Shown here: piece by piece, positions 16,419-56,747 of the stretch
Position numbering within the stretch: position 1 is the stretch's first letter
How the letters are laid out: every line of letters starts with the position of its first letter
NCBI GenBank assembly: GCA_028283825.1
Contig: JAPWJW010000004.1
Coordinates: 438,292 to 502,291, forward strand
DNA: 64,000 nucleotides
DNA from: Azospirillaceae bacterium
Lineage (GTDB): Bacteria > Pseudomonadota > Alphaproteobacteria > Azospirillales > Azospirillaceae
Direction: 5' to 3'
Notes under the pieces: model-generated
What the model was told of the DNA's origin: nothing
The model's input: the letters and a program-made list of their open reading frames with translations, nothing else
Databases searched by the model: none
Program-made: the position numbers and the translations under genes

Positions 16419-16580
16419 TACCAACCGCACAGGATTCCGTCTTGTGCCTCAATAGGCTGCGACCGCAGCCGCCGGAGCATTTCGGGGAGCCGAAGGCGGA
16501 CTGAAATGCGAGGAAGCCCAGCCAGCGGATGCTGGCGCCCGGCGCCTGAGGGGGCCTTTGATCCGTCAAGATCAAAGGCC
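16419..16580 (+). repeat. Structured intergenic repeat, copy A
   Basis: One of four related elements in the window (see also near 32.6, 55.75 and 56.67 kb). It contains a diverged first hairpin, then GGCTGC-GACC-GCAGCC, GCATTTC...GAAATGC, GCCAGC-GGAT-GCTGGC and GGCCTTTGATC...GATCAAAGGCC. Stem bases differ from other copies in a paired way. It lies between the 3' ends of two convergent genes, so it may end transcription from either side. Confidence 0.85.
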
Positions 16581-16587
16581 ACACGTA

Positions 16588-18240
16588 TCAGAAATTAAAG
16601 CGTACGCCGGTGGTGGGCGCGAAGTCGTTGTTGTACAGGTAGCCGGCGGCCTGGCCCCCGCTGACCTGTGAGTACATGAAGCCCAGATAGGCGTCGAACC
16701 GCTTGGCGAAGCGATAATCCGCCACCATCGACCAGGCGTTCAGCGTGCCGGAACAGGTGGCGGCACTGGTGTCCGAACAGCTTTTGGCGCCATAGCTGTT
16801 CTGCCCGTAATGGTAATAGGCGCCCGTCAGATCGACCTTGGAGGTCACGGCGTACTTGGCCCCACCCCACACCACCTGCAGGATCTTGTCGTGCGGGAAG
16901 GCCGTGTTGTTGACGATGGCCAGGGTATAGCCGCCGATGTCGGTGGTGCCCGCCTGCAAGGGCACCGACGGGTTGGAATAGTCGATGTACTCATAACCCG
17001 CGAAGAACTTCAGGTCGCGGTCCAGCGTGTATGAGGCCATCAGGCTGTAGGCGTCGTTGTCCGAGATGGTGCCGGCCAGCGAGGTGCGCGGGCTGTAGCC
17101 CAGCGCCTGCACCTGGGTGACCTGCGCCGCCGTCAGCGGGCCGACCGACACCGCGTTCTGCTTGTGGGCGAAGGCGGCGTCGAACGACAGGCCGCCGATG
17201 TCGCTGCCGACATCGAATTCCAGCGCGTTGCCGTGCATGCCGCCGTTGTCCTCACCGAACTGGTAGAGGGCGCCGACGCGCACCGGACCGATCTTGTTGG
17301 TGTATTTGACGGCGTTGTCCAGGCGGAAGTCTTCCGTGTCGCCGCCACCGCCGGCCACGCCGGAAAAACCGATGACCGAGAAGGCGTACGAGGCGCCCTG
17401 GGGGTCATAGGCGAAGACGTTGTCGGCGACCAGGGAGTTCTGGCGGCCCACGGTCAGCGTGCCCCACACCGGTGAACTGACGCCGGCGTAGGCGGCGCGG
17501 TTGAAGGCCTGGCCGGCGTGGCTGCTGTCGCCATAGCCGGTCTGCTTGGTGGTCGCCAGGCCGTTGTTGGCGGCGATCGATCCGGGGCCGTCGGCCAATT
17601 GGCCCGATTGCGGGTTGAAGCCGGTTTCCAGCTTGAACACCGCCGACCAGCCGTCGGCGATCTCCTCCGACCCCTTCAGGCCGATCTTGGACTGGCTGAG
17701 GCCGTTGGAGGTGAAGGTGGCGGTGCCCTTGTTGCCGTTCTTGCTGACCAGGTAGTTCACGGCGTCCGGCCAGTACTGGCTCAGCGGCGCGCCGTGGGAC
17801 TGATAGCCGAAGCCCACGTCCACCGTGCCGTACAGCGTGATGCCGTAATAGCTCAGGCTGCCGTCGCCCGGCGGCTTGGTGGAATGGGCCATGTCGTAGG
17901 CCGCCTTCTGCGCCGCGTCGGCCGCCACCTGGGCGGATTGTGCGCGATCGGCCGCCTGCTGCGCCGTCTGGGCGGTCGCGGCGGCGGTGGCCGTGCTTAG
18001 GCTGGTGGTCTGCGTCTGCTGCGTTTCCAGCGTGTTCAGCCGGTCCTGCATCGCCTGCATGGCCTTGGACTGGGCGGCCATCTGCTCCTGCGCCTGCTTC
18101 ATCTGGGCGCGCAGCTGGCGTAGTTCATCCGCGTCATTGGCCCAGGCTGGCTGGCTGGCGAGGGCCAGCAGGCCGCAGGCGGCCGTCATGGCCAAGCCGC
18201 GGCGCCATTTGGGGCGCCGGCGGACATCGTGTCGGTTCAT
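16588..18240 (-). CDS. Outer-membrane porin, porin_4/OmpC type
   Basis: A 550-residue porin. The start ATG at 18240 gives a basic n-region and a signal peptide ending QPAWA; a far upstream in-frame extension was rejected. The mature N-terminus holds a heptad coiled coil (ELRQLRAQMKQAQEQMAAQS, then an Ala/Gln-rich tract) as in periplasmic-anchored porins, then a trimeric-porin barrel (SYYGITLYGTVDVGFGYQSHG, GLKGSEEIADGWSAVFKLET, GTLTVGRQNSL). The last residues GVRFNF end in Phe. It would let small solutes cross the outer membrane. It has a 5' leader region of almost 500 bp shared with the divergent FecI-type sigma gene. Confidence 0.9.
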   Translation of the reverse strand: MNRHDVRRRPKWRRGLAMTAACGLLALASQPAWANDADELRQLRAQMKQAQEQMAAQSKAMQAMQDRLNTLETQQTQTTSLSTATAAATAQTAQQAADRAQSAQVAADAAQKAAYDMAHSTKPPGDGSLSYYGITLYGTVDVGFGYQSHGAPLSQYWPDAVNYLVSKNGNKGTATFTSNGLSQSKIGLKGSEEIADGWSAVFKLETGFNPQSGQLADGPGSIAANNGLATTKQTGYGDSSHAGQAFNRAAYAGVSSPVWGTLTVGRQNSLVADNVFAYDPQGASYAFSVIGFSGVAGGGGDTEDFRLDNAVKYTNKIGPVRVGALYQFGEDNGGMHGNALEFDVGSDIGGLSFDAAFAHKQNAVSVGPLTAAQVTQVQALGYSPRTSLAGTISDNDAYSLMASYTLDRDLKFFAGYEYIDYSNPSVPLQAGTTDIGGYTLAIVNNTAFPHDKILQVVWGGAKYAVTSKVDLTGAYYHYGQNSYGAKSCSDTSAATCSGTLNAWSMVADYRFAKRFDAYLGFMYSQVSGGQAAGYLYNNDFAPTTGVRFNF

Positions 18241-18732
18241 GGGTAAGTCAACTCCCTGGGCACCGCCCGCGCGGCCAACGCGCCGGCGGTGCCCTATCCG
18301 GTTACATGGGCGTGCGTTTTCGCCTGGCCGATCGGGCCAGGAGCCGCGACAAGTCCTGCTGCGACCGCGAAATAACGGCCCCATCAGGCGTATTGACCTG
18401 TTGCGGTGCACAAAAATTTTCAGGCATTCTAAAAGAGTTGTTAACTCTTCTTTAAAGAAGATATCGACGACGAAGCAATCGTCCGCGACATCCTGTACTG
18501 GGTAAGTTTCCTCTATCGACGTGCCATCTTCGGTGGTCGTCTTTTTTGTCAACGATACTTATGGGTAAGAACTACATGGATATTAAGTAGATGCTTGGGC
18601 GGCCAAGGCGACTAAATAATTTTTCAGTTAGATGAAACCCAATTTAATTGTCTGAAGCGCTGGGCCGCGCCGTCTTCCGGGCGCCCCGCCCTTCGGTTAT
18701 GGTGGACCCCTCTTTCCGGACGGAGCCCGCGC
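18241..18732. promoter_or_regulatory. Divergent control region between porin and ECF sigma genes
   Basis: A 490-bp gap without a credible gene. It contains a perfect AAGAGTT-GTT-AACTCTT inverted repeat at 18433-18449 followed on the minus side by TTTTAG, which could be an operator or a leader hairpin for the porin transcript. The part at 18540-18650 is AT-rich and suited to promoters. Confidence 0.5.
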
Positions 18733-19239
18733 ATGGACGATCCCTTGATGGCAGATCGACTGGCCAGCCCTGGCCTGTGGGCGCGTTTGCGCCGCCAGCT
18801 GACCCGCCTGACCGGGTCGCAGGACGTGGACGACCATCTGCATACCGCCTTCATGAAGCTTGAGGCCTATCGGGCGCGCGAACCGGTGCGGAACCCTGAG
18901 GCCTTCCTGGTGCGCGCCGCCGCCAACAGCGCGCTGGACGAACACCGCCGGGTGCAGCGCCAGGCGTCCCTGCCGTTGGGCGATGCCGATCTGGGCCCGT
19001 CCCTGGCGGACGAGGCCCCCTTGCAGGATGAGGTCTACGCCGCCCGCCAGCGGCTGGACCGGGTGCGCCAGAGCATTGCCCAACTGCCGCCGCGCACGCG
19101 GGAGATTTTCCTGATGCACCGCCTGGACGGCCTGAAATACCATGAGATCGCGGCGCGGCTGGGCATCAGCCAGAGTGCCGTGGAGAAACACATCGCCAAG
19201 GCGGCCCTGGCGCTGGCGGCGTGGACGAAGGGTTGGTGA
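18733..19239 (+). CDS. FecI-like ECF sigma factor
   Basis: A 168-residue ECF sigma factor. Region 2 lies in the first half (LTGSQDVDDHLHTAFMKLEA; VRNPEAFLVRAAANSALDEH) and region 4 in the second (IAQLPPRTREIFLMHRLDGL, then YHEIAARLGISQSAVEKHIA). It is followed by a FecR-type regulator with overlapping stop/start and then a TonB receptor carrying an N-terminal signalling domain. This is the classic FecI-FecR-FecA cell-surface signalling set: ligand at the receptor signals through FecR to free the sigma factor. GGAG lies 7 nt before the start. Confidence 0.93.
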   Translation: MDDPLMADRLASPGLWARLRRQLTRLTGSQDVDDHLHTAFMKLEAYRAREPVRNPEAFLVRAAANSALDEHRRVQRQASLPLGDADLGPSLADEAPLQDEVYAARQRLDRVRQSIAQLPPRTREIFLMHRLDGLKYHEIAARLGISQSAVEKHIAKAALALAAWTKGW

Positions 19240-20208
19240 GACAGGTGGCCCGGGCAGATATTCAGGATGCGGCTCCCCATACTGCCGCCGATGTCGAGGC
19301 CGCCGCCTGGATGGCGCGGCTGCGCGGGCCCGACCGGACGGAGGCGGCGTTGGCCGCCTTCCGCGCCTGGTGCGACGCTGACCCCGCGCACGCCGCCGCG
19401 TTTGAGCACATGACCGCCGTCTGGGACGTGGCTGGCGGCCTTCATGCCGAGCGTGCGGCCCTTTCGGGTGGCGCCACGCCGGCCGCCCGGCCCAGCCGCC
19501 GCCTGGTGTTGGCCGGCGTCGCCGGCGCCCTGGCGCTGGGCCTGGGCGGTGTGGGCTTCTGGCAGCGGGCGGGCGCCACCGTCTACAGCACGGCGGTGGG
19601 GGAGCAACGCCGGCTGTCGCTGGCCGACGGCACCCGCGTCATCCTGGATACCGACAGTGAGATCCGGGTGCGTCTCAGCGACCGGGCGCGGCGCGTGGCC
19701 CTGGTGCGCGGGCGCGCCAGCTTCGCGGTGGCCGACGACCGGCGGCCCTTACCTGGTGGACGCCGCCGACCGCCATATCGAGACCGACCCCGGTGCGGCC
19801 CAGTTCGACGTCCGCCGGGATGACGACATCGTCACCGTCACCCTGGTGGCGGGCGGTGCCCGGGTGCTGGGGCAGGTCGCCGCCCCGGTCACCCTGGCCG
19901 GTGGGCAGCAGTTGGTGGCGTTGCAGGCCGGAAACGAGGTCGACCAGCCCAACGTGGCCGACGCCACCGCCTGGCAAAGCGGCCGTGCCGTGTTCCGCGG
20001 TGACACCCTGGCGGCGGCGGCGGCGGAGATGAACCGCTACAGCCCGGTCAAGCTGACGGTGTCACCCCAGGCGGCGGGCTTGCGGGTCAGCGGCACCTAC
20101 CGCGTGGGCGACAACGCCGCCTTCGCCCATTCCGTCGGGACGCTGCTGTCGCTGCATGTCGTGGCCAGTGGGGGGCGGGGCGGCGACGGCTTGATGCTCA
20201 CCCCGTGA
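19236..20208 (+). CDS. FecR-family anti-sigma/sigma regulator (frameshifted)
   Basis: A single-pass membrane regulator of about 323 residues after correcting one extra T at 19749-19750. The N-terminal cytoplasmic domain (AAAWMARLRGPDRTEAALAA, DADPAHAAAFE) binds the sigma factor; a membrane helix (LVLAGVAGALALGLGGVGFW) is followed by the periplasmic FecR domain (VGEQRRLSLADGTRVILDTD) and, in the shifted frame, PYLVDAADRHIETDPGAAQF to the end. Read literally it stops at 19823. The GTG at 19236 overlaps the sigma stop as GTGA, a normal coupled start; a GTG at 19221 is the alternative. Confidence 0.88.
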
Positions 20209-20317
20209 CATATTCATGAAATTCCAAAAAATCCCCGAAAAAGGGATGAGGTAAATCCCGGCGCCCGCGTCGACGGGAAGGGGCTGCGGGGCAGCGCCCG
20301 TCATCTCGGGGGATATC

Positions 20318-22750
20318 ATGGGTTTCAAACAAGAAAGTCGGGCGGTCGGATCCCGTTTGCGTCGCGCCCTGGTCGTGGGTACGGCGCTGGCGCTGCTGAT
20401 GGGGGCGGGGATCGCCGGCGGTGCCGCCGCGCAGACCGGTGCCATCGCGCAAATCCAGCTGCCGTCGCAGGCGCTGGCCGCCTCGCTGGAGGCGGTGTCG
20501 CGCCAGACCGACACCAACATCCTGTTCACGCCCGACATGGTGGCCGGCCGCATCGCCCCGGCGCTCAGCGGCCCGATGACCGTGCGCGACGCCGTGGCCC
20601 GCTTGCTGGCCGGCAGCGGGCTTGAGGCCGTGCCGGACGCCGGCGGCGGCCTGGTGGTGCGCAAGATGGTGCCGCACGCGGCGGCTGGCGGCTCGCAGCC
20701 TGAGGTCCAACTGGCGGCGGCGGACCTGTCGGAAATCGTCGTCACCGCCCAGCGGCGGGCGGAAAATTTGCAGGACGTGCCGGTGGCGGTGACCGCCCTG
20801 CCGGCCAAGACGCTGCGCGACCAGCGCATCACCAACCTGCAGGACGTGTCGCGGGTCACACCGGGCCTGCTGGTCTCCTCCTTCAGCTACAGCAGCCCGA
20901 CCATCGCCATCCGCGGCGCCAGCAACACCTTCACCCAGATCGGGGTGAACCGCCCGGTGGCGGTGGTGCTGGACGACGTGTTCATCACCCGCAGCTCGGC
21001 CGCCATGTTCGATCTGTTCGATCTGGATTCCGTGCAGGTTCTGCGCGGGCCACAGGGCACGCTGTTCGGCCGCAATGTCACCGGCGGCGCCATCCTGCTG
21101 AACACCCGCAAGCCATCCTTCACCACGCCGGAGGTCGCGGGCTCCATCGGCTACGGCAACTACAACGCCTTCGACGTCAACGCGTTGGTCAGCGGCCCCA
21201 TCAGTGACGACGTGGCGGCCAAGCTGGTGGTCTCCCGCCACAGCCATGACGGTTACGGCCAGGATCGGCTGACCGGCCGGCCGGAGGACGATCTGGACAA
21301 CACCAATTTGCGCGGCCAGCTGCGCGCCCGCGCCGGCCGGGTCGACACCCTGTTCACCCTGGACTACAGCGACGACCACAACGGTGGGCGCACCCTGTCG
21401 TCCCTGGGCGGCGGTGATGACGGCAACCCGCGCACCTCCGAACTGGGCTTCCCGCAGAGTTTCACCCGCCACATGGCGGGCTTCGCCAACACCACCGACA
21501 TTGATGTGGGCCAGGGCACGGTCACCGCCATCACCGCCTACCGCCTGTCGCGCGCGGTGGAGCGCTATTCGTCCACCGGCACCAACTACGCCTTCCTGAC
21601 GACCGGCAGCCAGCAGATGAACGACGATGCCGACAACGTGAAGGATTTCTCCGAAGAGGTGCGCTACACCAGCCCGGAATGGGATCTGGGCCACTTCGTC
21701 GCCGGCGTCTATTACCTGAACGAGGACGCGACCCGGCAGCTGGGCGTGCGCAACTACGCGGCGCGCACCGGTGCGCTGACCGCCAACACCCTGGCCAACC
21801 AGTCGGTGGGCACCAACAGCATCTCCGGTTTCCTGGACGGCACCGTCAACCTGCCGGCGGATGTCAAGCTGACCCTGGGCGGCCGCTACACCCTGGATGA
21901 GAAGCAGGGCGACCTGATCCGCACCAACTACCTGACACCGGCCCTGGGCTTCAGCACCGGTGACCTCAACAGCGCCTGGGCGCAGTTCACGCCCCGCGCC
22001 GTGCTGTCGTGGCAGCCGACGCCGGATTACATGCTGTACGCCAGCATGGCCAAGGGCTTCACCTCCGGCGGCTACAATACGGAGGCGACCACGCTGGCCG
22101 CCATCGCCACCCCCTTCAATCCTGAAAAGGTGACGAATTATGAGGTGGGCGCCAAGACCAGCTGGTGGGACCAGCGCCTGACCGCCAACCTGGCGCTGTT
22201 CCACCTGGATTACCGGGACAAGCAGGAATACGTGCAGAACACCGTCACCGGCATCGGCACCATCCTGAACGCCGCCAAGGCGACGTCGCAGGGGGCGGAA
22301 CTGGAACTGGGTTTCCACCCCCTCCAGGGCTTGGACCTGACCGCCGCCTATTCCTACCTGGACACCGCCTATGATGATTTCTTCATCGCCCGGGTGGTGA
22401 ACAACACCGGCCATCCGCTGGGCTCCTCGCCCAAGCACAAGCTGGCGCTGACCGCCAATTATGAGACGGCGGTGGGCACCCTGGGCTACGTCGGCGGCAA
22501 CCTCAGTTATTCGTGGATGGACGACTATTACACCGGCGCCACCAAAAGCCCGCAGCTGTTCGTGCCGGTCTACTACCTGGTCAACGCCAGCCTGACCTTC
22601 CAGACGCCGGACCGCCATTACCGCCTGACGCTGTGGGGCAAGAACCTGCTGGACCGGGATTATCTGCAGACGCCGTCCACCGCCGGCGTGCTGTCGGAAT
22701 ATCTGGGCGCCCCCCGCACCTACGGCGCCACCCTGTCGGCGGACTTCTGA
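20318..22750 (+). CDS. TonB-dependent receptor with FecA-type signalling domain
   Basis: An 810-residue outer-membrane receptor. A signal peptide (ending about GGAAA) is followed by a secretin/TonB short N-terminal domain (IQLPSQALAASLEAVSRQTD) that signals to FecR, a plug domain (EIVVTAQRRAENLQDVPVAV; LRGPQGTLFGRNVTGGAI) and a 22-strand barrel ending GATLSADF. It imports an unknown ligand, such as a siderophore, heme or glycan, using TonB energy. The plug style resembles sugar- or drug-type receptors common in Alphaproteobacteria, so iron is not certain. It is preceded by its sigma/anti-sigma pair, and a secreted hydrolase gene starts 2 nt after its stop. Confidence 0.93.
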   Translation: MGFKQESRAVGSRLRRALVVGTALALLMGAGIAGGAAAQTGAIAQIQLPSQALAASLEAVSRQTDTNILFTPDMVAGRIAPALSGPMTVRDAVARLLAGSGLEAVPDAGGGLVVRKMVPHAAAGGSQPEVQLAAADLSEIVVTAQRRAENLQDVPVAVTALPAKTLRDQRITNLQDVSRVTPGLLVSSFSYSSPTIAIRGASNTFTQIGVNRPVAVVLDDVFITRSSAAMFDLFDLDSVQVLRGPQGTLFGRNVTGGAILLNTRKPSFTTPEVAGSIGYGNYNAFDVNALVSGPISDDVAAKLVVSRHSHDGYGQDRLTGRPEDDLDNTNLRGQLRARAGRVDTLFTLDYSDDHNGGRTLSSLGGGDDGNPRTSELGFPQSFTRHMAGFANTTDIDVGQGTVTAITAYRLSRAVERYSSTGTNYAFLTTGSQQMNDDADNVKDFSEEVRYTSPEWDLGHFVAGVYYLNEDATRQLGVRNYAARTGALTANTLANQSVGTNSISGFLDGTVNLPADVKLTLGGRYTLDEKQGDLIRTNYLTPALGFSTGDLNSAWAQFTPRAVLSWQPTPDYMLYASMAKGFTSGGYNTEATTLAAIATPFNPEKVTNYEVGAKTSWWDQRLTANLALFHLDYRDKQEYVQNTVTGIGTILNAAKATSQGAELELGFHPLQGLDLTAAYSYLDTAYDDFFIARVVNNTGHPLGSSPKHKLALTANYETAVGTLGYVGGNLSYSWMDDYYTGATKSPQLFVPVYYLVNASLTFQTPDRHYRLTLWGKNLLDRDYLQTPSTAGVLSEYLGAPRTYGATLSADF

Positions 22751-22752
22751 CC

Positions 22753-23982: not shown

Positions 23983-23988
23983 GCTGGG

Positions 23989-32012: not shown

Positions 32013-32543
32013 ATGCCTGAGCCCGCGTTTGCCTTGCGGCGATTGTCCCCGGACGACGTGCCGGCCATCGCCGACCTGTATGCCCGCTGCCGGGACTATT
32101 TCCTGCTGGAAGGGGGCGCGCCGCCGACCGTGGATGACGCGCACGTGCTGTTCACCGACATTCCGGAATCGAAACAAGCCGTTGACCAGGCCGTATTCGG
32201 CTGGGGACAAGGCGGCCGGCTGGATGCGGTCGCGGCGGTGCTGTCCGACTATCCGGTGGTGGGGGAATGGTATCTGGGGGTCCTGCTTGTCGACCCGGCA
32301 CGGCGCGGCCAAGGTGTCGGCCGCACCATCTACGGGATGGTCGAGGCCTGGGCGGTGGCGCGCGGCGCCCGTCACATGCGGGTGGCGGTGCTGGAGGCCA
32401 ACACCGCCGCGCATGGATTCTGGCGATCCCTGGGATTTGCCGACCTGCGCACCGTCGCCGCCGAACGGTTCGGGCGCAAATGGCACCGCCGCGTCGAATT
32501 GCGGCGGGATCTGGTGGGCTATGCCAGCGGCACGAGAGTCTGA
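32013..32543 (+). CDS. GNAT-family N-acetyltransferase
   Basis: A 176-residue GNAT acetyltransferase using acetyl-CoA. The core is ALRRLSPDDVPAIADLYARC, the strand GEWYLGVLLVDPARRGQGVG (acetyl-CoA loop R-R-G-Q-G-V-G) and AVLEANTAAHGFWRSLGFAD. The substrate cannot be predicted. The last eight codons and stop are encoded inside the first stem of intergenic repeat copy B. Confidence 0.88.
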   Translation: MPEPAFALRRLSPDDVPAIADLYARCRDYFLLEGGAPPTVDDAHVLFTDIPESKQAVDQAVFGWGQGGRLDAVAAVLSDYPVVGEWYLGVLLVDPARRGQGVGRTIYGMVEAWAVARGARHMRVAVLEANTAAHGFWRSLGFADLRTVAAERFGRKWHRRVELRRDLVGYASGTRV

Positions 32544-32685
32544 CTCGTGCCGCTGTAAGCTGCGACCGCAGCCGCCGGAGCTTTCCGGGGAGCGTAGCGG
32601 ACTGGAAAGCGAGGATGAGCCAAGCGACCGGATGGCAGCAAGCGGCGTCTGAGGGGCGGCATTTGATCCATCAAGATCAAATGCC
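32524..32685 (+). repeat. Structured intergenic repeat, copy B
   Basis: Second copy of the element. Its first hairpin is perfect (CAGCGGCACGAG with CTCGTGCCGCTG) and overlaps the 3' end of the GNAT gene. Then GCTGC-GACC-GCAGC, GCTTTCC...GGAAAGC (against GCATTCC/GGAATGC in copies C and D), GCGACC-GGAT-GGCAGC (a less well-paired fourth stem) and GGCATTTGATC...GATCAAATGCC. It lies between convergent gene ends. Confidence 0.87.
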
Positions 32686-32692
32686 GAGCGTA

Positions 32693-33217
32693 TTAGAGCG
32701 GCCAGTCGCTGCCGGCGACGAAGGCCAGGGCCAGGGCTTCGATGCCGGCCTGGTCCTGCGCGTCGAACCGCGCCGGGTTGGGGCTGTCCAGGTCGATGAC
32801 GCCCAGCACCTGGCCGTCCAGGATCAGCGGCACCACCAGTTCGGAGCGCGAGGCCGCGTCACAGGCGATGTGGCCGGGGAAGGCGTGCACGTCCTCCACC
32901 AGCACGGACTGGCGGCGTTCCACCGCCGTGCCGCAGACGCCGCGCCCCACGGCGATGCGCACGCAGGCCGGCTTGCCCTGGAACGGGCCCAGCACCAGCT
33001 CGCGCGTGCCGCCCAGGTTGCCTTTGGCCGCGTTGCGCATGAAATAGAATCCGGCCCAGTTCAGGTCGGGCAGGGTGGTGAACAGCAGGGCCGACAGGTT
33101 GGCGGCATTGGCGATGGCGTCGCGCTCATCCGTCAGCAGGCCGGACAGGTCCAGGGCCAGGTCGCTGTAGAGGGTGGCCTTGTCGCGCGGCGTGTCGATG
33201 GTGCGGGCTTCGAACAT
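32693..33217 (-). CDS. Free methionine-(R)-sulfoxide reductase (GAF-domain)
   Basis: A 174-residue single-GAF enzyme of the fRMsr (MsrC) family, which reduces free methionine-R-sulfoxide. The signature LNWAGFYFMRNAAKGNLG, LGPFQGKPACVRIAVGRGVC, and IACDAASRSELVVPLILDGQ with the family cysteines are present. It repairs oxidised methionine and draws electrons from thioredoxin in known cases. Start at 33217 has no alternative nearby. Its stop is just after repeat copy B on the opposite side. Confidence 0.92.
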   Translation of the reverse strand: MFEARTIDTPRDKATLYSDLALDLSGLLTDERDAIANAANLSALLFTTLPDLNWAGFYFMRNAAKGNLGGTRELVLGPFQGKPACVRIAVGRGVCGTAVERRQSVLVEDVHAFPGHIACDAASRSELVVPLILDGQVLGVIDLDSPNPARFDAQDQAGIEALALAFVAGSDWPL

Positions 33218-49244: not shown

Positions 49245-49280
49245 AAAAAAAGCCCCTGTCCCGGGATCGGGCAGGGGCTT
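49245..49280 (-). terminator. Rho-independent terminator after hmp
   Basis: On the minus strand AAGCCCCTG pairs with CAGGGGCTT across a GC-rich loop, followed by a T8 run. A strong terminator 27 bp after the flavohemoglobin stop. Confidence 0.9.
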
Positions 49281-49307
49281 CAGGGTGTGATGGGGGCGGG
49301 GGGGCTG

Positions 49308-50552
49308 CTACGCCGCCATCAGTTCCTCGGCGGGGCCGAAGAATTCGTAATGGATTTGGGATGCCGCCACGCCCGCCTGGGCCAGGCCGGTGACGAAGGT
49401 CCGCAGGAAGGGCTTGGGCCCGCACAGATAGATGTCGGCCCCGGCCAGCGGCGTGTTGGTCCTGAGCCAGTCCAGGGTGACCAGGCCCCGGGTGACTGGC
49501 CCGGCGTCGTGGCTGACGCCGACCGCGTCACCCGCCAGCGGGTCGGCGTAGAAGGTGGCGACCTTGATGTGGGGCCGCGTCGCCGCCAGAGCGCGCACGT
49601 GGCCATCCAGGGCGTGGGTGGCGCTGTTGGCGGCACCGTGGATGTAGTGTGTCTCCAGACCCGGGTGCCGGTCGGCGATGGTTTCCAGCATGGCGACCAT
49701 GGGTGTCAGGCCGACCCCGCCCGACAGCAGAATCACCGGCCGCTGCGGCCGTTCCGCCAGGAAGAAGTCGCCGGCGGGCGGGGACACCTGCAGGACATCG
49801 CCCACCGCCACCCGGTCGTGCAGCCAGGGGGAGGCGGCACCGCCCACCTCTCGCTTCACGGTGATGCGATAGCTGCGGCCATTGGCGGCGGTGGAGATGC
49901 TGTAGTTGCGGCGCACCGGCGCCTGGTTGGCGCCGTGCACCGGCAGCAGGAAGGTCAAATACTGCCCCGCCTTGTGGCGCAGCACGGGGCCGCCGTCCTT
50001 GGGCGCCAGGACCAGGCTGGTGATGACGGCGCTTTCCACGATCTTCTCGGCCACGATGAAGTCGCGCCAGCCGGCCCAGCCGCCCTCCGCACCGGCCACG
50101 GCGTCATAGATCACCTGTTCGCGCGCCATCAGCACGCGCGCCAGGAACCAGTACGCCTCACCCCAGGCGTTCAGCACGGGCGGCGTGGCGGCATCACCCA
50201 AAACCTCCTGGATGGCGGCCAGCAGGGCGGTGGCCACGAAGGGGTAATGTTCCGGCAGGATGCGCAGGCCCACATGCTTCTGCGCGATGCGCTCCACCGC
50301 CGAACCCAGGGCGCCCAAATTCTCGATATTGCGGGCATAGCCCAGGATGGCGTCGGCCAGGGCCTTGGCCTGCGCCCCGCCGCCCTCGCCACCGGGCGTG
50401 TGGTGGTGGGATTGGTTGAACAGCGCCGCGATATGCGTGTCCTGGAACAGGCGCGCATACATGGCGCGGGTGATGGCGGGGCCGTGGTCGGCCAGGGCGG
50501 GCACGGTGGCCTTGACGATGGCGATGGTCGCGGCGCTCAGGGGCTGGGGCAT
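49308..50552 (-). CDS. hmp: Flavohemoglobin (nitric oxide dioxygenase)
   Basis: A 414-residue flavohemoglobin, which turns NO and O2 into nitrate with NAD(P)H. The N-terminal globin (MPQPLSAATIAIVKATVPAL...NIENLGALGSAVERIAQKHV with proximal His) is followed by a reductase with FAD site RRNYSIS, NAD site GGVGLTP and C-terminal YLCGPKPFLR and FEFFGPAEEL-like end. Length is normal. It shares a minus-strand transcript with a truncated hemoglobin upstream (gap 88 bp), preceded by two NsrR-type operators. No frame defects. Confidence 0.95.
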   Translation of the reverse strand: MPQPLSAATIAIVKATVPALADHGPAITRAMYARLFQDTHIAALFNQSHHHTPGGEGGGAQAKALADAILGYARNIENLGALGSAVERIAQKHVGLRILPEHYPFVATALLAAIQEVLGDAATPPVLNAWGEAYWFLARVLMAREQVIYDAVAGAEGGWAGWRDFIVAEKIVESAVITSLVLAPKDGGPVLRHKAGQYLTFLLPVHGANQAPVRRNYSISTAANGRSYRITVKREVGGAASPWLHDRVAVGDVLQVSPPAGDFFLAERPQRPVILLSGGVGLTPMVAMLETIADRHPGLETHYIHGAANSATHALDGHVRALAATRPHIKVATFYADPLAGDAVGVSHDAGPVTRGLVTLDWLRTNTPLAGADIYLCGPKPFLRTFVTGLAQAGVAASQIHYEFFGPAEELMAA

Positions 50553-50640
50553 GGTGGTTCCTCATCTGCGGTGGGCAAAAGGCTCCGCCCTCAGGCCGGC
50601 CGCGTGGCCGCCCGCTGGGGCGAAGGGAAGGGGCGGGGAT

Positions 50641-51015
50641 TTAGGCGGCGGGCCGGTAGAACAGGCCCAGTTGCAGGCTGGTGGCGATGCGGGCCGCCTT
50701 GGCCAGGGCGTCGGCCGCGGCCTCCGGCGGCAGCACCTCCGCCGTCGTCTGCGACCACAGGGCCAGCCAGCGGTCGAACATGGCGGGTGTCAGCCGCTGC
50801 AAGTGCTTCAGGTGGGCGGCCATGGGGTTGCCCTTGTAACGGGGACCGGCCAGCCTTTCGGGCGGCAGCATCAGGGCCGACCAGAAGGCCGTCAGGGTTT
50901 CCAGATGCTGGTCCCAGTCGGTGATGGCGCGGTTGAACACCGGCCCCAAATCGGGATCCTGCCGCACCCGGGCATAGAAGCGGGACACCAGCGTGGCCAA
51001 GAGGCGCTCATCCAT
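50641..51015 (-). CDS. Group III truncated hemoglobin, second copy
   Basis: A 124-residue truncated hemoglobin related to that at 27.0-27.5 kb: LVSRFYARVRQDPDLGPVFN, TDWDQHLETLTAFWSALMLP, RYKGNPMAAHLKHLQRLTPA. Both copies share FYARVR and FWS. It is upstream of hmp on the same strand, with two NsrR-type operators just before its start. The role is probably NO handling under NsrR control. Confidence 0.93.
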   Translation of the reverse strand: MDERLLATLVSRFYARVRQDPDLGPVFNRAITDWDQHLETLTAFWSALMLPPERLAGPRYKGNPMAAHLKHLQRLTPAMFDRWLALWSQTTAEVLPPEAAADALAKAARIATSLQLGLFYRPAA

Positions 51016-51029
51016 GGCTTGCTCTCTAA

Positions 51030-51052
51030 ATCATGTATTTTGAATACATGTT
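51030..51052 (-). promoter_or_regulatory. NsrR-type operator 1 upstream of globin-hmp operon
   Basis: Minus strand AACATGTATTC-A-AAATACATGAT, close to the NsrR 11-1-11 consensus AANATGCATTT-N-AAATGCATNTT. It lies 14 bp before the globin start. Confidence 0.8.
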
Positions 51053-51066
51053 ATTGGGCGACCAAA

Positions 51067-51089
51067 AAGATGCGTCATGAATATATGTT
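51067..51089 (-). promoter_or_regulatory. NsrR-type operator 2 upstream of globin-hmp operon
   Basis: Plus-strand reading AAGATGCGTCA-T-GAATATATGTT has the same dyad shape as the other two sites. It follows the first site by 14 bp, about 3.5 helical turns centre to centre. It looks weaker than operator 1 but is well placed to act together with it. Confidence 0.7.
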
Positions 51090-51128
51090 ATGTCGGCTAT
51101 GTGGGATTGGCCTGGCGCGGCCGGACGC

Positions 51129-51731
51129 CTACCGCCCGGCGATGCCCAGCAGGCGCCGCGTGGTCTGAAGTGCCGTCTCGAACGGGTCGTGGGTGCGCAC
51201 GATCTTGACCATGACGCTGGCGCCCAGCCACAGGTAATAGAGCGAGGCCGCCAGGTCCGTCGCCGGCTCCGTGACGGACAGCGACCCGTCCTGGACACCG
51301 GCGTCGATGGCGCGCGTCAGCCGCGCGATGATGCCGTTGGTCCCCGCCTTCAGCACCAGCCGCATCGGTTCCGACAGGTCCGACACCTCGGCCCCCAGCT
51401 TCACCGCCAGGCAGCGCCCCTGGCAGTCGTAGGCGCCCTGGTTCTCGCGCCACAGGGCCCAGTAGGTCATCAGCCGCTCCGCCATTGTCAGGCCGGGGCG
51501 GGCCAGCAGCGTGTCCATCTCACCGTGATAATCGGTGAAATACTCCACCAGCATGGCCTCGCCAAAGGCGTCCTTGGAGGCGAAGTAATGATAGAAGGAC
51601 CCCTTCGGCACGCCGGCATCCTTCAGGATCTCGGTCAGGCCGACGGCGGAGAAGCCCTTCCGGCTCATGATCTTCTGGCCGGAGGCGAGGATGGTCTCGC
51701 GGGCGTCGGGTTCGTGAAGTGCGATCATCAT
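51129..51731 (-). CDS. NemR/AcuR-like TetR-family electrophile-responsive repressor
   Basis: A 200-residue TetR-family repressor. Helix-turn-helix: ILASGQKIMSRKGFSAVGLT, EILKDAGVPKGSFYHYFASK, the form seen in NemR/AcuR-type regulators. A Cys pair DCQGRC lies in the ligand domain (about residues 100-105), plausible for electrophile sensing as in NemR. It is divergent from the glyoxalase-OYE-ALDH operon with three identical-type dyads in the gap. Ligand identity is inferred from the genes controlled. Confidence 0.88.
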   Translation of the reverse strand: MMIALHEPDARETILASGQKIMSRKGFSAVGLTEILKDAGVPKGSFYHYFASKDAFGEAMLVEYFTDYHGEMDTLLARPGLTMAERLMTYWALWRENQGAYDCQGRCLAVKLGAEVSDLSEPMRLVLKAGTNGIIARLTRAIDAGVQDGSLSVTEPATDLAASLYYLWLGASVMVKIVRTHDPFETALQTTRRLLGIAGR

Positions 51732-51751
51732 GGCGCCAACCTACCGTTCAT

Positions 51752-51766
51752 TAGACCAGTCGTCTA
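51752..51766. promoter_or_regulatory. TetR-type operator O1
   Basis: TAGAC-CAGTC-GTCTA, a perfect dyad 20 bp before the start of the NemR-like gene. First of three copies of TAGAC-N5-GTCTA in the divergent gap. Confidence 0.75.
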
Positions 51767-51904
51767 CAACATAGTGCGCCGTTCGCGCTGCGCTAGGCCG
51801 GTTAACGCGAATCTCCGTCTCATTGGGCAAAACTGCCGAGCCGATCTGCGAGGAAGGTGTGCCGGGCTCGCGCCAGAAAAATCGACCTTGAGCAAAATAG
51901 GCAC

Positions 51905-51919
51905 TAGACGACCGGTCTA
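51905..51919. promoter_or_regulatory. TetR-type operator O2
   Basis: TAGAC-GACCG-GTCTA, a perfect dyad centred 150 bp before the first structural gene; the strongest match of the three. Confidence 0.75.
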
Positions 51920-51998
51920 ATCGCAGTTAGTTAAATGTCCATCGGCGCCACCGACGGTCCGACGGACGATCCGGTGGCGGTGAATGTCTTCAAGGGTC

Positions 51999-52013
51999 AA
52001 GACGACCGGTCTA
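51999..52013. promoter_or_regulatory. TetR-type operator O3
   Basis: AAGAC-GACCG-GTCTA (one mismatch from the dyad) 49 bp before the DJ-1-like gene. The rest of the roughly 330-bp gap between the TetR gene and this operon holds no gene. Confidence 0.7.
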
Positions 52014-52062
52014 ATCAATCGGCCACTCCTGGCCGCCCCAACAAGATGAAGGAACTTTCCCC

Positions 52063-52749
52063 ATGAAAATCCTGATGGTGCTTACCTCGCACGACACGCT
52101 GGGCGATACCGGCCGCAAGACCGGCTTCTGGCTGGAGGAGCTGGCGGCCCCCTACTACACGTTCAAGGATGCCGGGGCGGAGATCGTCCTGGCCTCGCCC
52201 AAGGGCGGCCGTCCGCCCCTGGACCCGAAGAGCAATGAGCCCGATTTCCAGACCGCCGACACCCACCGGTTCGAGGCGGACGCGGAGGCAACCGAGGCGC
52301 TGTCCCACACCGTCAAGCTGTCCGATGTTTCAGCGGCCGACTTCGACACCGTGTTTTATCCCGGTGGCCATGGCCCGCTGTGGGACCTGGCGGAAGATGG
52401 CAACTCGATCAACCTGATCGAAAGCTTCGTGGCCGCCGGCAAGCCCGTCGCCTTCGTCTGTCACGCCCCCGGCGTCCTGCGCCATGTGAAGACCGCCGGC
52501 GGGCGGCCGCTGGTGGAGGGCAAGAAGGTCACCGGTTTCACCAACACCGAGGAAGAAGCGGTCGGCCTGACCCAGGTCGTGCCCTTCCTGGTCGAGGATG
52601 AGCTGAAGGCCAAGGGCGGCCTCTATTCCAAGGGTCCCGACTGGGCATCCTACGTGATCCAGGACGGTCAACTGATCACCGGCCAGAATCCCGGTTCCTC
52701 GCCCGCCACGGCCCGGGCGCTGATGGACGCGCTGAAGGTCGGCGCCTGA
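52063..52749 (+). CDS. DJ-1/PfpI-family protein (Hsp31/glyoxalase-III-like)
   Basis: A 228-residue protein of the type 1 GATase/DJ-1 superfamily. The nucleophile elbow is AFVCHAPGVL with Cys near residue 130, preceded by the DTVFYPGGHGPLWDLAED loop with conserved Gly/His/Asp, as in Hsp31/HchA and other glutathione-independent glyoxalases. It probably detoxifies methylglyoxal or other reactive carbonyls. It is first in a NemR-type operon, in which E. coli uses a glyoxalase as partner, supporting that role. Direct activity is unproven. Confidence 0.85.
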   Translation: MKILMVLTSHDTLGDTGRKTGFWLEELAAPYYTFKDAGAEIVLASPKGGRPPLDPKSNEPDFQTADTHRFEADAEATEALSHTVKLSDVSAADFDTVFYPGGHGPLWDLAEDGNSINLIESFVAAGKPVAFVCHAPGVLRHVKTAGGRPLVEGKKVTGFTNTEEEAVGLTQVVPFLVEDELKAKGGLYSKGPDWASYVIQDGQLITGQNPGSSPATARALMDALKVGA

Positions 52750-52781
52750 TCACCTGAAAACGGCAGGCGGGGGCATCCGAC

Positions 52782-52922
52782 ATGCGCACCCTTTGGCACT
52801 GGGTTGGCACCGCCTTGGTGGCGCAGCCCTTCTATTCTGAAGAAATCAGGATGGTCCAGCTGCTGCTCCAGCCCTGGATCCATCGGCTGCCGCACGTCGC
52901 CTTGCCCCGCCTGGGCCGATAG
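52782..52922 (+). CDS. Possible small ORF between DJ-1-like and OYE genes
   Basis: A 46-residue ORF MRTLWHWVGTALVAQPFYSE ending HVALPRLGR. It follows GGCAGGCGGGGGC by about 11 nt, is basic and has no homology I recognise. Weak coding evidence; listed because it fills much of the 288-bp gap. Confidence 0.25.
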   Translation: MRTLWHWVGTALVAQPFYSEEIRMVQLLLQPWIHRLPHVALPRLGR

Positions 52923-53037
52923 GCCCCAACCACCCACCACACATCCCCGTACCATCACCCCCGGCGCCGACCGCGCCGGGGGACGGGTCCCCGCATGCCC
53001 GCCCCGGGCGGCGGCGGACCCGGGAGGAGACCAGACG

Positions 53038-54186
53038 ATGACCGGAAACCACATCTATTTCTCGCCCGTCCAGCTGGGCCGCCACACGCTGGCCAACCGC
53101 ATCGTGCTGCCGCCGCTGACCCGCCAGCGTGCGGCCCAGCCGGGCGATGTGCCCACCGACCTGATGGCCGACTATTACCGCCAGCGCGCCAGCGCCGGCT
53201 TCATGGTGACGGAGGGTGCGCAGATCGAGCCGCGCGGCCAGGGCTACGCCTGGACGCCGGGCATCCACACCCCGGCCCAGGTCGCCGGCTGGCGCAAGGT
53301 GACCGACGCGGTCCATGCCGAGGGTGGGGTGATCTTCGCCCAGCTGTGGCACGTCGGCCGCGTGTCGCACCACGCGCTGCAGCCGGATGGGGCGTCCCCT
53401 GTCGCCCCGTCCGCCATCGCCCCCGACAAGGTGCGCGCCTTCATCGAGACGGCACCCGGCGCCGGTGTGCTGGTGCCGCCGCCCACGCCCCGCGCGCTGA
53501 CGGTTCCGGAGATCGAGGAACTGGTCGGCCTTTACGCCCAGGCGGCGCGCAACGCCATCGCCGCCGGCTTCGATGGGGTGGAGATCCACGCGGCCAATGG
53601 CTATCTGGTCAACCAGTTCATCTCCGCCCACGCCAACCAGCGCGACGACGCATATGGCGGCTCGCTGGACAACCGCCTGCGTTTCCTGCGTGAGATCGTG
53701 GCCGCCGTGTCCGACGCCGTCGGCGCCGACCGGCTGGGCGTGCGCTTCACGCCGCTGTTCGAAAGCACCGACCAGGATCGCGTCTATATCGGCCTGGTGG
53801 AGGATGATCCGCACGCCACCTACATCCAGGCGATCAAGGTGCTGGACGACGCCGGTGTCGCCTATCTTTCCATCGCCGAGGCCGATTGGGACAACGCGCC
53901 CGACCTGCCCCCCCGTTTCCGCCAGGCGGTGCGCGCGGCCTATCGCGGCCGGATCATCTATGCCGGCCGGTACACCGTGGAACGCGGCGCCCGCCTGCTG
54001 GAAAGCGGCCTGGCGGACATGGTCGCCTTCGGCCGCCCCTTCGTCGCCAATCCCGACCTGCCGGCGCGCATCGCCAACGGCTGGCCCTTGAACCCGGTGG
54101 ACACCGCGACGCTCTACGGCGGCGGCGCCAAGGGCTACATCGACTACCCGACCTATGGGGCCCCGGCCACGCAAGCCGCGGAATAG
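53038..54186 (+). CDS. Old yellow enzyme (NemA-like alkene reductase)
   Basis: A 382-residue FMN-dependent ene-reductase of the OYE family. Signatures: ANRIVLPPLTRQRA, FAQLWHVGRVSHHALQPDGA, and the substrate-binding His/Asn pair in VEIHAANGYLVNQFIS, HANQRDDAYGGSLDNRLRFL, and YAGRYTVERGARLLESGLAD. It reduces activated C=C bonds (N-ethylmaleimide, enals) with NAD(P)H. This is the target type of NemR, matching its TetR neighbour. It starts after GGAGGAGA. Confidence 0.95.
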   Translation: MTGNHIYFSPVQLGRHTLANRIVLPPLTRQRAAQPGDVPTDLMADYYRQRASAGFMVTEGAQIEPRGQGYAWTPGIHTPAQVAGWRKVTDAVHAEGGVIFAQLWHVGRVSHHALQPDGASPVAPSAIAPDKVRAFIETAPGAGVLVPPPTPRALTVPEIEELVGLYAQAARNAIAAGFDGVEIHAANGYLVNQFISAHANQRDDAYGGSLDNRLRFLREIVAAVSDAVGADRLGVRFTPLFESTDQDRVYIGLVEDDPHATYIQAIKVLDDAGVAYLSIAEADWDNAPDLPPRFRQAVRAAYRGRIIYAGRYTVERGARLLESGLADMVAFGRPFVANPDLPARIANGWPLNPVDTATLYGGGAKGYIDYPTYGAPATQAAE

Positions 54187-54220
54187 TCCCCGACCCCTTT
54201 CAGAAGAAGGATTGAGCACC

Positions 54221-55684
54221 ATGGACATCCTGAACAATCTCAAGGCGGCCGGCTGGCTACGTGAGCGGAACGCGATCGGCGGCACCTGGCGTGATGCGGA
54301 AGGCGGCGCGCGGTACGACGTCGGCAATCCGGCGACGGGGGCCGTGATCGGCACCATCCCCTGGGCAGGCGCGGTTGAGACCAAGGCCGCCATCGATGCC
54401 GCCCAGGCCGCGTTCGGCCCGTGGTCGCGCGAACTGGCGACCACCCGCGCCGACGCCCTGTTGCGCATGGCGGCGGTCATCCGCGACAATGCCGACCTGC
54501 TGGCGTCCATGCTGACGCTGGAACAGGGCAAACCCCTGGCCGAGGCGCGCGGCGAAATCCAGCTGGGCGCCAATTACGTGCAGTGGTTCGCGGAAGAGGC
54601 GCGCCGCGTCAATGGTGAGATCATCCCCTCGCCCTGGCAGGGGCGCCAGCTTCTGGTCATGCGCGAACCGGTGGGCGTGGTCGCCGCCATCTCCCCCTGG
54701 AACTTCCCCTTCTCCATGCTGTCGCGCAAGATCGCCCCGGCGCTGGCGGCCGGCTGCACCGTGGTGGTGAAGCCGTCGGAATTCACGCCCTATTGCGGGC
54801 TGGTCTGGGCCATCCTGGCGGAAAAGGCGGGCATTCCCGCCGGCGTGGTTAATGTCGTCACCGGCGACGCGGTGGCCATCGGTGGTGAGCTGACCGCCAA
54901 TCCGCTGGTGCGCAAGCTGACCTTCACCGGCTCCACCCGGGTGGGCAAGCTGCTGTACCAGCAGTCGGGCGCCACGATGAAGAAGCTGTCGATGGAACTG
55001 GGCGGCAACGCCCCCTTCATCGTCTTCGACGACGCCGACCTGGACCGGGCGGTCGAGGGCGCCATCGCGGCCAAGTACCGCAACGCCGGCCAGACCTGCG
55101 TCTGCGCCAACCGCTTCTATATCCAGGACGGCATCTACGAGGCCTTCGCCCAGCGCTTCACCGAGCGGGTGAAACAGCTGAAGGTCGGCGACGGTTTCGA
55201 GGACGGCGTGCAGCAGGGCCCGCTGATCAATGAGGCGGCGGTGGCCAAGGTCGCCGCCCATGTCGCGGATGCGCTGGCCAAGGGCGGCACGCTGCTGGCC
55301 GGCGGCCGGCGCCACGCGCGGGGCGGCACCTTTTTCGAGCCGACGGTGATCCGCGACGCCACCGACGACATGGTGGTCGCGCATGAGGAGACGTTCGGCC
55401 CCCTGTCGGCCCTGTTCCGCTTCAAGGACGAACAGGACGCCATCGATGCCGCCAACGCGTCGGAATTCGGGCTGGCCGCCTATTTCTACACCACCAACCT
55501 GGCCCGCACCTTCCGCGTCGCCCGGGCGCTGGAAAGCGGCATGGTCGGCATCAACGAAGGCATCATCACCAATGAGGCCGCCCCCTTCGGCGGCGTGAAG
55601 GACAGCGGCATCGGCCGTGAAGGCTCCAGCCACGGCATCGAAGAATTCCTCCAGCTGAAATATCTGAGCCTCGGCGGGCTCTGA
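54221..55684 (+). CDS. Succinate-semialdehyde dehydrogenase-type aldehyde dehydrogenase
   Basis: A 487-residue NAD(P)-dependent aldehyde dehydrogenase. It is closest to the GabD/SSADH group: TFTGSTRVGKLLYQQSGATM, MELGGNAPFIVFDDADLDRA with the catalytic Glu, and NAGQTCVCANRFYIQDG with the catalytic Cys. It oxidises aldehydes to acids, fitting aldehyde clearance in this operon, or 4-aminobutyrate breakdown. A start at 54221 after GAAGAAGGATTG is clear. Repeat copy D follows its stop. Confidence 0.92.
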   Translation: MDILNNLKAAGWLRERNAIGGTWRDAEGGARYDVGNPATGAVIGTIPWAGAVETKAAIDAAQAAFGPWSRELATTRADALLRMAAVIRDNADLLASMLTLEQGKPLAEARGEIQLGANYVQWFAEEARRVNGEIIPSPWQGRQLLVMREPVGVVAAISPWNFPFSMLSRKIAPALAAGCTVVVKPSEFTPYCGLVWAILAEKAGIPAGVVNVVTGDAVAIGGELTANPLVRKLTFTGSTRVGKLLYQQSGATMKKLSMELGGNAPFIVFDDADLDRAVEGAIAAKYRNAGQTCVCANRFYIQDGIYEAFAQRFTERVKQLKVGDGFEDGVQQGPLINEAAVAKVAAHVADALAKGGTLLAGGRRHARGGTFFEPTVIRDATDDMVVAHEETFGPLSALFRFKDEQDAIDAANASEFGLAAYFYTTNLARTFRVARALESGMVGINEGIITNEAAPFGGVKDSGIGREGSSHGIEEFLQLKYLSLGGL

Positions 55685-55693
55685 TACTGAGCG

Positions 55694-55815
55694 CCCTCAG
55701 GCGCCGGGCGCCCGCATCCGCGGGCTGGGCTTCCTCGCATTCCAGTCCACTCCCGTTCCCCGGAATGCTCCGGCGGACACGGCGTCGTGTCCTACCAGCG
55801 GCTCGTGCCGCTGTG
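55694..55815 (-). repeat. Structured intergenic repeat, copy D
   Basis: Fourth copy, in opposite orientation to the others. It has a shortened first stem (AGCGGC-ACGA-GCCGCT), then GGACAC-GACGCC-GTGTCC, GCATTCC...GGAATGC and GCCCGC-GGAT-GCGGGC, and it ends with CGCCCGGCGCCTGAGGG. The last TTTGATC hairpin is missing. It lies in the 162-bp gap between the ALDH and SDR genes. Confidence 0.82.
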
Positions 55816-55846
55816 GGCCCCATTTGCAAAACAGGAGAGTGACATC

Positions 55847-56587
55847 ATGAGCAAGGGTATCGAAGGCAAGGTCGTCCTCATCACCGGCGGCAGCACGGGC
55901 ATCGGGGCGGAAACCGCCCAGTTGCTGGCCCAGCGCGGCGCCAAGGTGGCCATCGCCGCCCGCCGCAAGGACAAGCTGGACGGGGTCGTGGCCGATATCA
56001 CCGCCAGCGGCGGCAGCGCCCGGGCCTATGTGCTGGACGTGACCGACAAGGCCCAGGTGCAGGCCGTCGTGGCCGCCGTGGTGGCGGATTTCGGCCGGCT
56101 GGACGTGCTGATCAACAATGCCGGCCTCATGCCCATCCGCCCGATGGCGGAGGTCAACACCGACGAATGGGATCAGATGATCGACGTGAACCTGAAGGGG
56201 ACGCTGTACGGCATCGCCGCCGTGCTGCCGCGCTTCCTGGCGCAGGACGGCGGCCACATCATCAACCTCAGTTCCGTCGCCGGCATCAAGGTCTTCGCGC
56301 CCGGCGGAACGGTCTATTCGGGCACCAAGTTCGCGGTGCGCGCCATTTCCGAAGGGCTGCGGCAGGAGGTCGGCGAAAAGGTCCGCGTCACCTCGATCGA
56401 GCCGGGCGCGGTAGAGAGTGACCTCAAGCATTCCACCACCGGCACCGCCCAGGAAACGGTGCTTCAGTTCTACAAGCAGGCGATCCCCGCCGCCTCGGTC
56501 GCGCGCGCCATCGCGTTCGCCATCGAACAGCCGGACGATGTGGATGTGAATGAGATCGTCATCCGCCCGACCCGGCAGGAATTTTGA
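55847..56587 (+). CDS. SDR-family oxidoreductase
   Basis: A 246-residue short-chain dehydrogenase: Rossmann GGSTGIGAETAQLLAQRGAK, NNAG near residue 90, catalytic YSGTKFAVRAISEGLRQE. It is the last gene of the electrophile operon and likely reduces reactive carbonyls with NAD(P)H. The start ATG after GGAGAGTGACATC is clear. Its stop is immediately followed by repeat copy C. Confidence 0.92.
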   Translation: MSKGIEGKVVLITGGSTGIGAETAQLLAQRGAKVAIAARRKDKLDGVVADITASGGSARAYVLDVTDKAQVQAVVAAVVADFGRLDVLINNAGLMPIRPMAEVNTDEWDQMIDVNLKGTLYGIAAVLPRFLAQDGGHIINLSSVAGIKVFAPGGTVYSGTKFAVRAISEGLRQEVGEKVRVTSIEPGAVESDLKHSTTGTAQETVLQFYKQAIPAASVARAIAFAIEQPDDVDVNEIVIRPTRQEF

Positions 56588-56747
56588 TACCAGCGGCATG
56601 AGACAACGACTCATACCGCTGTAGGACGCGACCGCGTCCGCCGCAGCATTCCGGGGAGCCGCAGGCGGACTGGAATGCGAGGAAGCCCAGTCGCCGGATG
56701 GCGACGCCCGGCGTCTGAGGGGGCTTTGATCGGTCAAGATTAAAGCC
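56588..56747 (+). repeat. Structured intergenic repeat, copy C
   Basis: The clearest copy. Hairpins: AGCGGCATGAG...CTCATACCGCT (56592-56602/56610-56620, one mismatch), GGACGC-GACC-GCGTCC (56624-56629/56634-56639), GCATTCC...GGAATGC (56646-56652/56672-56678), GTCGCC-GGAT-GGCGAC (56690-56695/56700-56705) and GGCTTTGATC...GATTAAAGCC (56722-56731/56738-56747). It begins right after the SDR stop. The remaining 166 bp before the ABC permease gene show only an AT-rich leader. Confidence 0.88.

Follow-up and report, generated by a model that had tools for sequence, protein, structure and literature searches.

The window analysed here, a 64,000-nucleotide stretch of an Azospirillaceae genome (assembly GCA_028283825.1, contig JAPWJW010000004.1, positions 438,292 to 502,291), contains four copies, A to D, of an intergenic hairpin repeat. 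We consider it fairly probable that this repeat is a non-autonomous mobile element resembling miniature inverted-repeat transposable elements (MITEs), which is probably moved in trans by an IS630-family transposase, duplicates a TNA triplet and has filled the 3' ends of genes. A preliminary description, made from the letters of the window alone, had proposed a new structured RNA or repeat family. For the source genome of the window (the "own" genome below, treated as Nitrospirillum; 7.16 Mb in five contigs) and for related genomes we determined how many copies there are, their ends and flanks, where they lie, at which sites species differ and which structure is conserved. A complete element measures about 146-171 bp and runs from TACCA to TGGTA: hairpin H1, which carries the start TACCA, is followed by a core, H2-H3-AAGCCAAG-H4, ending in CCCGGCGNYTGAGGG, and by hairpin H5, which carries the end TGGTA; the loop of H2 reads GAC[C/G/T] and that of H4 GGA[T]. 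We place a mobile DNA element ahead of other readings because of the terminal inverted repeats, the 3-bp TNA flanks, the presence or absence of copies between species and the IS630-like ends.

The repeat is abundant in its own genome. A blastn search there listed 43 places, 40 of 417 candidates being scored, and R1, a model of the repeat, matched in all 150 candidates scored out of 15771, any copy number above 150 being an extrapolation. The four window copies are thus not the only ones, and in the seven genomes of the window's genus all candidates that were scored matched. Exact matches to the core pattern in named genomes comprised 51 stretches, all from Nitrospirillum or 'Azospirillum sp. 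B4', and plasmid records of Niveispirillum and Azospirillum also contain matches, with no annotation on the three stretches inspected. Positions were analysed for 95 non-overlapping own copies in 1.02 Mb (E<=0.01 in a block of contig C3, most of C4 and the window, plus the own part of a second scan at E<=0.001). Overlap with called genes does not exceed 60 bp in any of them. The gaps that hold them are convergent in 37 cases, codirectional in 55 and divergent in only 3, compared with 14.3 convergent and 24.0 divergent expected from intergenic bases, or 14.9 and 14.7 from the number of gaps. As proposed for the four window copies, for which it is true, location at gene 3' ends holds for 92 of the 95, at a median distance of 8.5 bp and within 15 bp in 61, with the limit that genes were called by a simple script and individual distances may be wrong. 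Density differs within the genome: the C3 block at 1.74-2.14 Mb, picked because it is rich in copies, has 64 in 400 kb, and C4 (one replicon) has 31 in 620 kb; pieces of sister genomes hold 9 copies per 200 kb each at E<=0.001.

Copies that are almost identical to one another in G045, a genome from a different family, fix the ends; they run TACYAAG...CTGGTA over 146 bp. Both ends were recognised in 15 of its 26 matches, and both flanks lie inside the contig in 12 of those 15; the flanking triplets are identical in 10 of the 12, each being TTA, TAA or TGA, as compared with a shuffle mean of 4.8 (7 of 5000 shuffles as high). Own copies read TRCCA...RYGTA, and TNA triplets adjoin 19 of 53 left ends and 19 of 39 right ends, against an intergenic background of 4.3%; the two flanks agree within one mismatch in 16 of 26 copies, a count that 5 of 5000 shuffles reached (mean 9.8). 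At 9/53 left and 11/39 right ends the flanking triplet coincides exactly with the stop codon of a called gene. Own-genome copies are old, and those of G045 are young. End recognition in the 95 own copies gave both ends in 26, H1 only in 27, H5 only in 13 and neither in 29; because so many keep one end or neither, H1 and H5 appear to be separable modules at the ends. G045 also holds a palindrome like H5 on its own, between TAA and TTA (L300).

Comparison with two sister genomes, G006 and G003, revealed that sites differ between species. The block examined is syntenic with both. For 26 own copies the matching place was located in one sister or both; the sister gap was shorter by 42-265 bp in every placed sister at 18 of these sites, in one sister only at 5 and in none at 3. 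Site alignments (15 own sites and further ones) include clear absences, relics and replacements. Where orthologous copies exist, their stem letters differ and the pairing is mostly kept, which could reflect either compensation in place or exchange between copies. At one own array (C3 321104-321223) and the orthologous site in G003, the copies lie at the same gene end in opposite orientations, which suggests repeated insertion at one place.

The four window copies had been described as rich in hairpins whose stem bases change together, and both claims are borne out. Each copy folds more stably than its dinucleotide shuffles (z of -4.8 for A, -4.1 for B, -5.3 for C and -3.4 for D). A set of 28 own copies (chosen by blastn and aligned with MAFFT; 26 of 30 loci, without L010, L017, L018 and L027, plus window copies B and D) has 40 consensus pairs, 18 of which are changed on both sides. 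Paired cells amount to 97.6%, as compared with 87.1% in shuffles and 30-48% in slid controls, and both-sided changes were found in 109 cells versus 28 in shuffles. An outer pairing GCCGG/CCGGC failed to gain support from covariation, three of its four pairs being invariant in Nitrospirillum, and we rejected this outer helix (P3) as a conserved pairing: it is nearly invariant in Nitrospirillum, and by eye its 5' strand is missing from most copies of other genera. The preliminary description did not recognise the family, nor did Rfam 15: its covariance models gave no match in eight element loci at E<=0.5, a scan of the window at gathering thresholds returned RF00080 alone, away from the copies, and a known RNA family was ruled out on these grounds. 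The proposal of a new repeat family under structural constraint is supported, given the many copies, the compensated changes, the class-wide relatives and the lack of an Rfam match; a structured RNA is one possible reading among several.

The core extends well beyond the genus. Copies from other genera (L066-L084) have stems of quite another sequence in an unchanged order, H1, H2, H3, H4. Across 17 of these copies, both-sided changes affect 15 of the 20 core pairs, and 93.4% of cells are paired versus 68.5% in shuffles. At E<=1e-4, model R2, built from these copies, had matches in 34 of the 385 class genomes; they represent 27 of 277 genera and, by row count, 20 families, several of which rest on a single weak match. 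The core was recognised by its pattern in 20 of 24 R2 loci (not at all in L244, L245 and L248, and at the wrong place in L235) and in 5 of 9 stretches from genome G358. The literature searched, which comprised open-licence papers only, gave no description that we recognised as this repeat.

As to the mover, we scanned 2.25 Mb for a TNA triplet with 16-bp inverted TACC ends 0.5-3.5 kb apart, and one of the three hits proved to be filled by an IS630-family transposase; the third (L308), whose TACC ends enclose a reading frame unmatched in Pfam, probably consists of two adjacent copies. The IS630 insertion sequences found here end in TACCAA..TTGGTA and have TNA flanks: paired ends with equal flanks were convincing in 5 of the 15 loci examined (three full copies with TAA in the own genome, one copy with TTA in G006 and one with TAA in G358), others showing right ends of the form TGGTA-TNA. 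The left end of the G358 IS630 agrees with the Nitrospirillum H1 in 21 of 26 bases, the top result among 15 comparisons, and with the H1 of L066 in 20 of 26; none of 5000 shuffles did as well in either case. Within one genome, G041, the IS630 right end resembles the right end of the element, scoring 19-21 in six copies and 17 at one more site; other tails there score 4-10, with one at 14. Because ends are similar in some genomes and the flanks are of the same kind, an IS630-family transposase is, as judged from sequence, the likely partner. No autonomous partner carrying the H1 of the element was met in 1.02 Mb of own sequence, where none of 43 H1-like places stood alone, and a search for the empty site of one own IS630 copy found its flanks unmatched in two sister blocks. 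IS5/IS1031, considered as a source of the TNA duplications, was displaced by the IS630 finding. An IS630 fragment adjoins an element tail in contig C51 of G045; this junction could have arisen by a chance deletion and is not used as evidence. Another of the three hits of the inverted-end scan, at own C4 357610-358919 (L156:17610-18919), is an element copy whose AAGCCAAGC linker is interrupted by the gene for an IS110-family (RNA-guided) transposase.

Several observations weigh against the mobile-element reading, and above all against its IS630 part. Own flanks are exactly identical in only 4 of 26 copies, not above shuffles (785 of 5000 as high); an earlier, cruder parse counted no identical pair among 16 copies and 7 that agreed within one mismatch (shuffle mean 5.3), the flanks in G078 agree in part only, by eye, and 29 of the 95 own copies have neither end recognisable. 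Element relics remain at some of the shorter sister gaps; shortness of a gap thus need not mean that the site is empty. Classical IS630 duplicates TA. IS630 relatives were present at E<=1e-20 in only 8 of 28 element-bearing genomes; a search of three element-rich genomes at E<=1e-5 yielded a single fragment of the family, in G045, and nothing in G078 or G114. In the own genome the likeness between IS630 and element ends is weak (14 of 26 bases shared with the Nitrospirillum H1; 160 of 5000 shuffles as good), in G358 the element L366 is no close match to the left end of the IS630 there (hand count, 13 of 26 bases), and G041 is a fragmented draft with 7% contamination. A second IS630 family of the own genome has CTAGAGCATT ends, unlike the TACCAA type (it occupies six places, for example C3:46318-47180; three of the six copies were compared for these ends). 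The sparse presence of IS630 and the weak likeness of ends within one genome are the main weak point of the IS630 reading; in genomes without one, the partner may have been lost, be absent from the drafts or be a different one.

When set beside MITEs, the elements are small (146-171 bp), have no transposase inside and occur in many copies. Terminal inverted repeats are present in G045 and, with both ends, in 26 of 95 own copies; target-site duplication appears as the identical TNA flanks of G045 (10/12) and, in the own genome, as flanks within one mismatch (16/26) or exact (4/26). A likeness of ends to an insertion sequence of the same genome is seen on the right in G041, weakly in the own genome and not in G358, and G078 and G114 gave no IS630. 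A+T richness, which is usual in MITEs and not required, is lacking, the G+C content of 103 matches being 58-77%. Prokaryotic MITEs derived from insertion sequences, as portrayed in PMC10969869, PMC2229807 and PMC5896051, are likewise small, non-coding and intergenic, with terminal inverted repeats, target duplication and a stable predicted fold; they have ends like those of an insertion sequence family, as may be the case here. The elements described here differ from them in being rich in G+C, in an inner core of three hairpins that occurs in many families of the class, in their TNA or stop-codon flanks, and in H1 and H5, each a hairpin of its own and sometimes missing. They share the TACCAA..TTGGTA type of ends, with partial identity, and the TNA flanks with the IS630 copies found here, which, unlike them, encode a transposase. 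Taken together, the results describe a real and abundant MITE-like family of mobile elements whose folded core is unusually widespread and whose target is of the stop-codon type; its mover is probably an IS630 transposase.

In the mechanism we envisage, an IS630-family transposase would act in trans on the H1 and H5 ends, and each insertion would duplicate a 3-bp TNA target. TAA, TGA, TTA and TCA all read as a stop codon on one of the two strands, and insertion at such triplets would presumably do little harm in a dense genome, so that copies would gather at gene 3' ends. Our best guess is that the spread of the element requires the core to fold, either as RNA or as extruded single-stranded DNA, and that the tail of the core may at times become a ribosome-binding site for the downstream gene. 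Among 83 copies with TGAGGR, nine have an ATG or GTG 2-13 nt further on that opens a reading frame of at least 100 codons; by eye most of these nine, not all, resemble real gene starts, and element copies can, to judge by such starts, lend a Shine-Dalgarno-like GAGG to nearby genes.

The conserved structure permits other readings: it may act as single-stranded DNA or as RNA, or persist through palindrome correction or exchange between copies. If the repeat were primarily a cis-acting RNA family (a 3' UTR (untranslated region) stabiliser, terminator or regulator) selected site by site, with mobility secondary, one would expect the heavy compensated change described above, pairing kept at orthologous copies despite differing stem letters, and an excess of GT pairs over AC mismatches, which was 16 to 11 in alignment A3 and, among the best 60 of A4 as fitted by the model, 66 to 25. 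We nevertheless regard this as quite unlikely, given that codirectional copies lie on both strands relative to their neighbours (29 same, 26 opposite), that sites are gained and lost between species, and that Rfam holds no match. In alignment A7 a one-sided wobble was found in a single cell, compared with 71 changed on both sides and 21 unpaired; this rarity means that a DNA-level structure or palindrome correction fits as well as RNA. Correction of palindromes, or gene conversion between copies, could by itself have produced the compensated stem changes without selection on structure, and in addition to the rare wobbles it would agree with orthologous stems that differ considerably where the flanking genes are alike, with H2 and H3 loops that are not clearly more fixed than their stems, and with an H1 loop less fixed than its stem. 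However, the H4 loop is fixed and its stem varies (identity 0.98 versus 0.68; linkers and tail 0.85), and the order of hairpins and the linker recur in other families; correction alone would not preserve these features, and we hold this explanation to be unlikely.

The elements could also be of the repetitive extragenic palindromic (REP) or bacterial interspersed mosaic element (BIME) type, that is, short palindromes starting with GTAG and spread in trans by RAYT, a Y1 transposase. Many Nitrospirillum copies do have GTAGG before H2 (by eye), and like REP and BIME sequences the copies are numerous intergenic palindromes at gene 3' ends; moreover, of 28 genomes tested for the Y1 transposase domain PF01797, 7 had it, among them element-bearing ones such as G010 and G033. 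Yet the domain was unmatched in all seven Nitrospirillum and five g12 genomes tested (the control being positive in 5 of 14 genomes), and the inverted ends and 3-bp flank repeats, which look like a target duplication, are unlike the products of RAYT. The REP/RAYT explanation was rejected for Nitrospirillum on the 0/7 result and appears very improbable overall.

Together with MITEs, the closest repeats described are the GANTC-bearing, intergenic CIR repeats of Caulobacter and Brucella, to which the elements might belong. GANTC, the CcrM site, lies near the left end in 17 of 53 own copies (6.6 when shuffled), 12 of 14 in G045 (1.9) and 5 of 5 in G041 (0.7), and in 4 of 4 IS630 left ends examined; for G358 no element left end was located. 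The passages on CIR repeats in PMC2229807, which reports Chen and Shapiro (2003), portray them as alphaproteobacterial and intergenic, with TA at both ends, hairpin arms and GANTC near the loop, as here, and call for more work on the mechanism of their mobility. The same passages give them about 110 bp and two arms with a linker, as opposed to the up to five hairpins of our elements, which we compared with CIR by description only. Furthermore, GANTC occurs in only 2 of 7 left ends in G078 and in 6 of 20 in L066-L084, and membership in the CIR repeats seems doubtful to us. With similar diffidence we speculate that the class-wide core (H2-H3-AAGCCAAG-H4-CCCGGCGNYTGAGGG) might be a selfish or domesticated module that borrows IS630 ends, duplicates stop-codon triplets and colonises gene 3' ends, creating new 3' UTRs and at times ribosome-binding sites, and whose GANTC would possibly couple movement to replication via CcrM methylation. 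Dam sites tie the movement of some other transposons to replication.

The MITE-like element moved by IS630 would account for the densely spaced repeats that shape the 3' ends of genes in Nitrospirillum and, as related forms, in many further Alphaproteobacteria; it would supply a target rule (TNA, often a stop codon) as well as a candidate mover (IS630). Its many natural copies lend themselves to testing whether the folded core of a mobile element is selected as DNA or as RNA.

Within the window, copies A to D are all the matches of R1 at E<=0.01, and their positions agree with the preliminary description within a few bases. Copy A (16419..16587, plus strand, 169 bp, TACCAA...CGTA; delimited by R1, fold and end parse) is flanked on the left by TCA at 16416..16418, a triplet read from the sequence, and on the right by TCA at 16588..16590, which gene calls identify as the TGA stop of a minus-strand gene ending at 16588. 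Its hairpins lie at about 16427-16447 (H1), 16455-16470 (H2), 16477-16509 (H3) and 16521-16536 (H4), followed by the tail CTGAGGG and by H5 at about 16552-16579. Copy B (32522..32692, plus strand, 171 bp, TGCCAG...GCGTA; delimited likewise) has CTA at 32519..32521 by the end parse, one mismatch from its right flank, TTA at 32693..32695, which by gene calls is the TAA stop of the minus-strand gene 32693-33217. Copy C (56588..56754, plus strand, 167 bp, TACCAG...TTGGCA; R1 and fold) follows the TGA stop (56585..56587, plus strand, gene calls) of the gene ending at 56587; H1 occupies about 56591-56621, H2 56624-56639, H3 56646-56678 and H4 56690-56705, with TGAGGG at 56716-56721 and H5 at 56722-56747. 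The right end of copy C, an atypical GGCA rejected by the end-parsing script, was placed by eye, as was its right flank TGA (56755..56757, plus strand), the same as the left one. Copy D (55685..55815, minus strand; R1 and fold) has a degenerate left end with a short H1 and a right end ...CAGTA, and its flank TGA at 55682..55684 is, by gene calls, the stop of the plus-strand gene ending at 55684. Hence, one flank is the stop codon of a neighbouring gene in all four copies; the two flanks are identical in A (TCA) and, with its right end placed by eye, in C (TGA), they read CTA/TTA in B, and D keeps one end. The stem pairs given earlier for the four copies proved right wherever we checked them, but stem 4 of copy B is imperfect and copy D has no intact left end.

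The window further contains a manganese (yybP-ykoY) riboswitch at 1455-1579 on the minus strand, scoring 47.3 bits against a gathering score of 45. In genome G337, contig 5 (L274 1533-5003) carries tandem, near-identical element copies spaced at about 115 bp.

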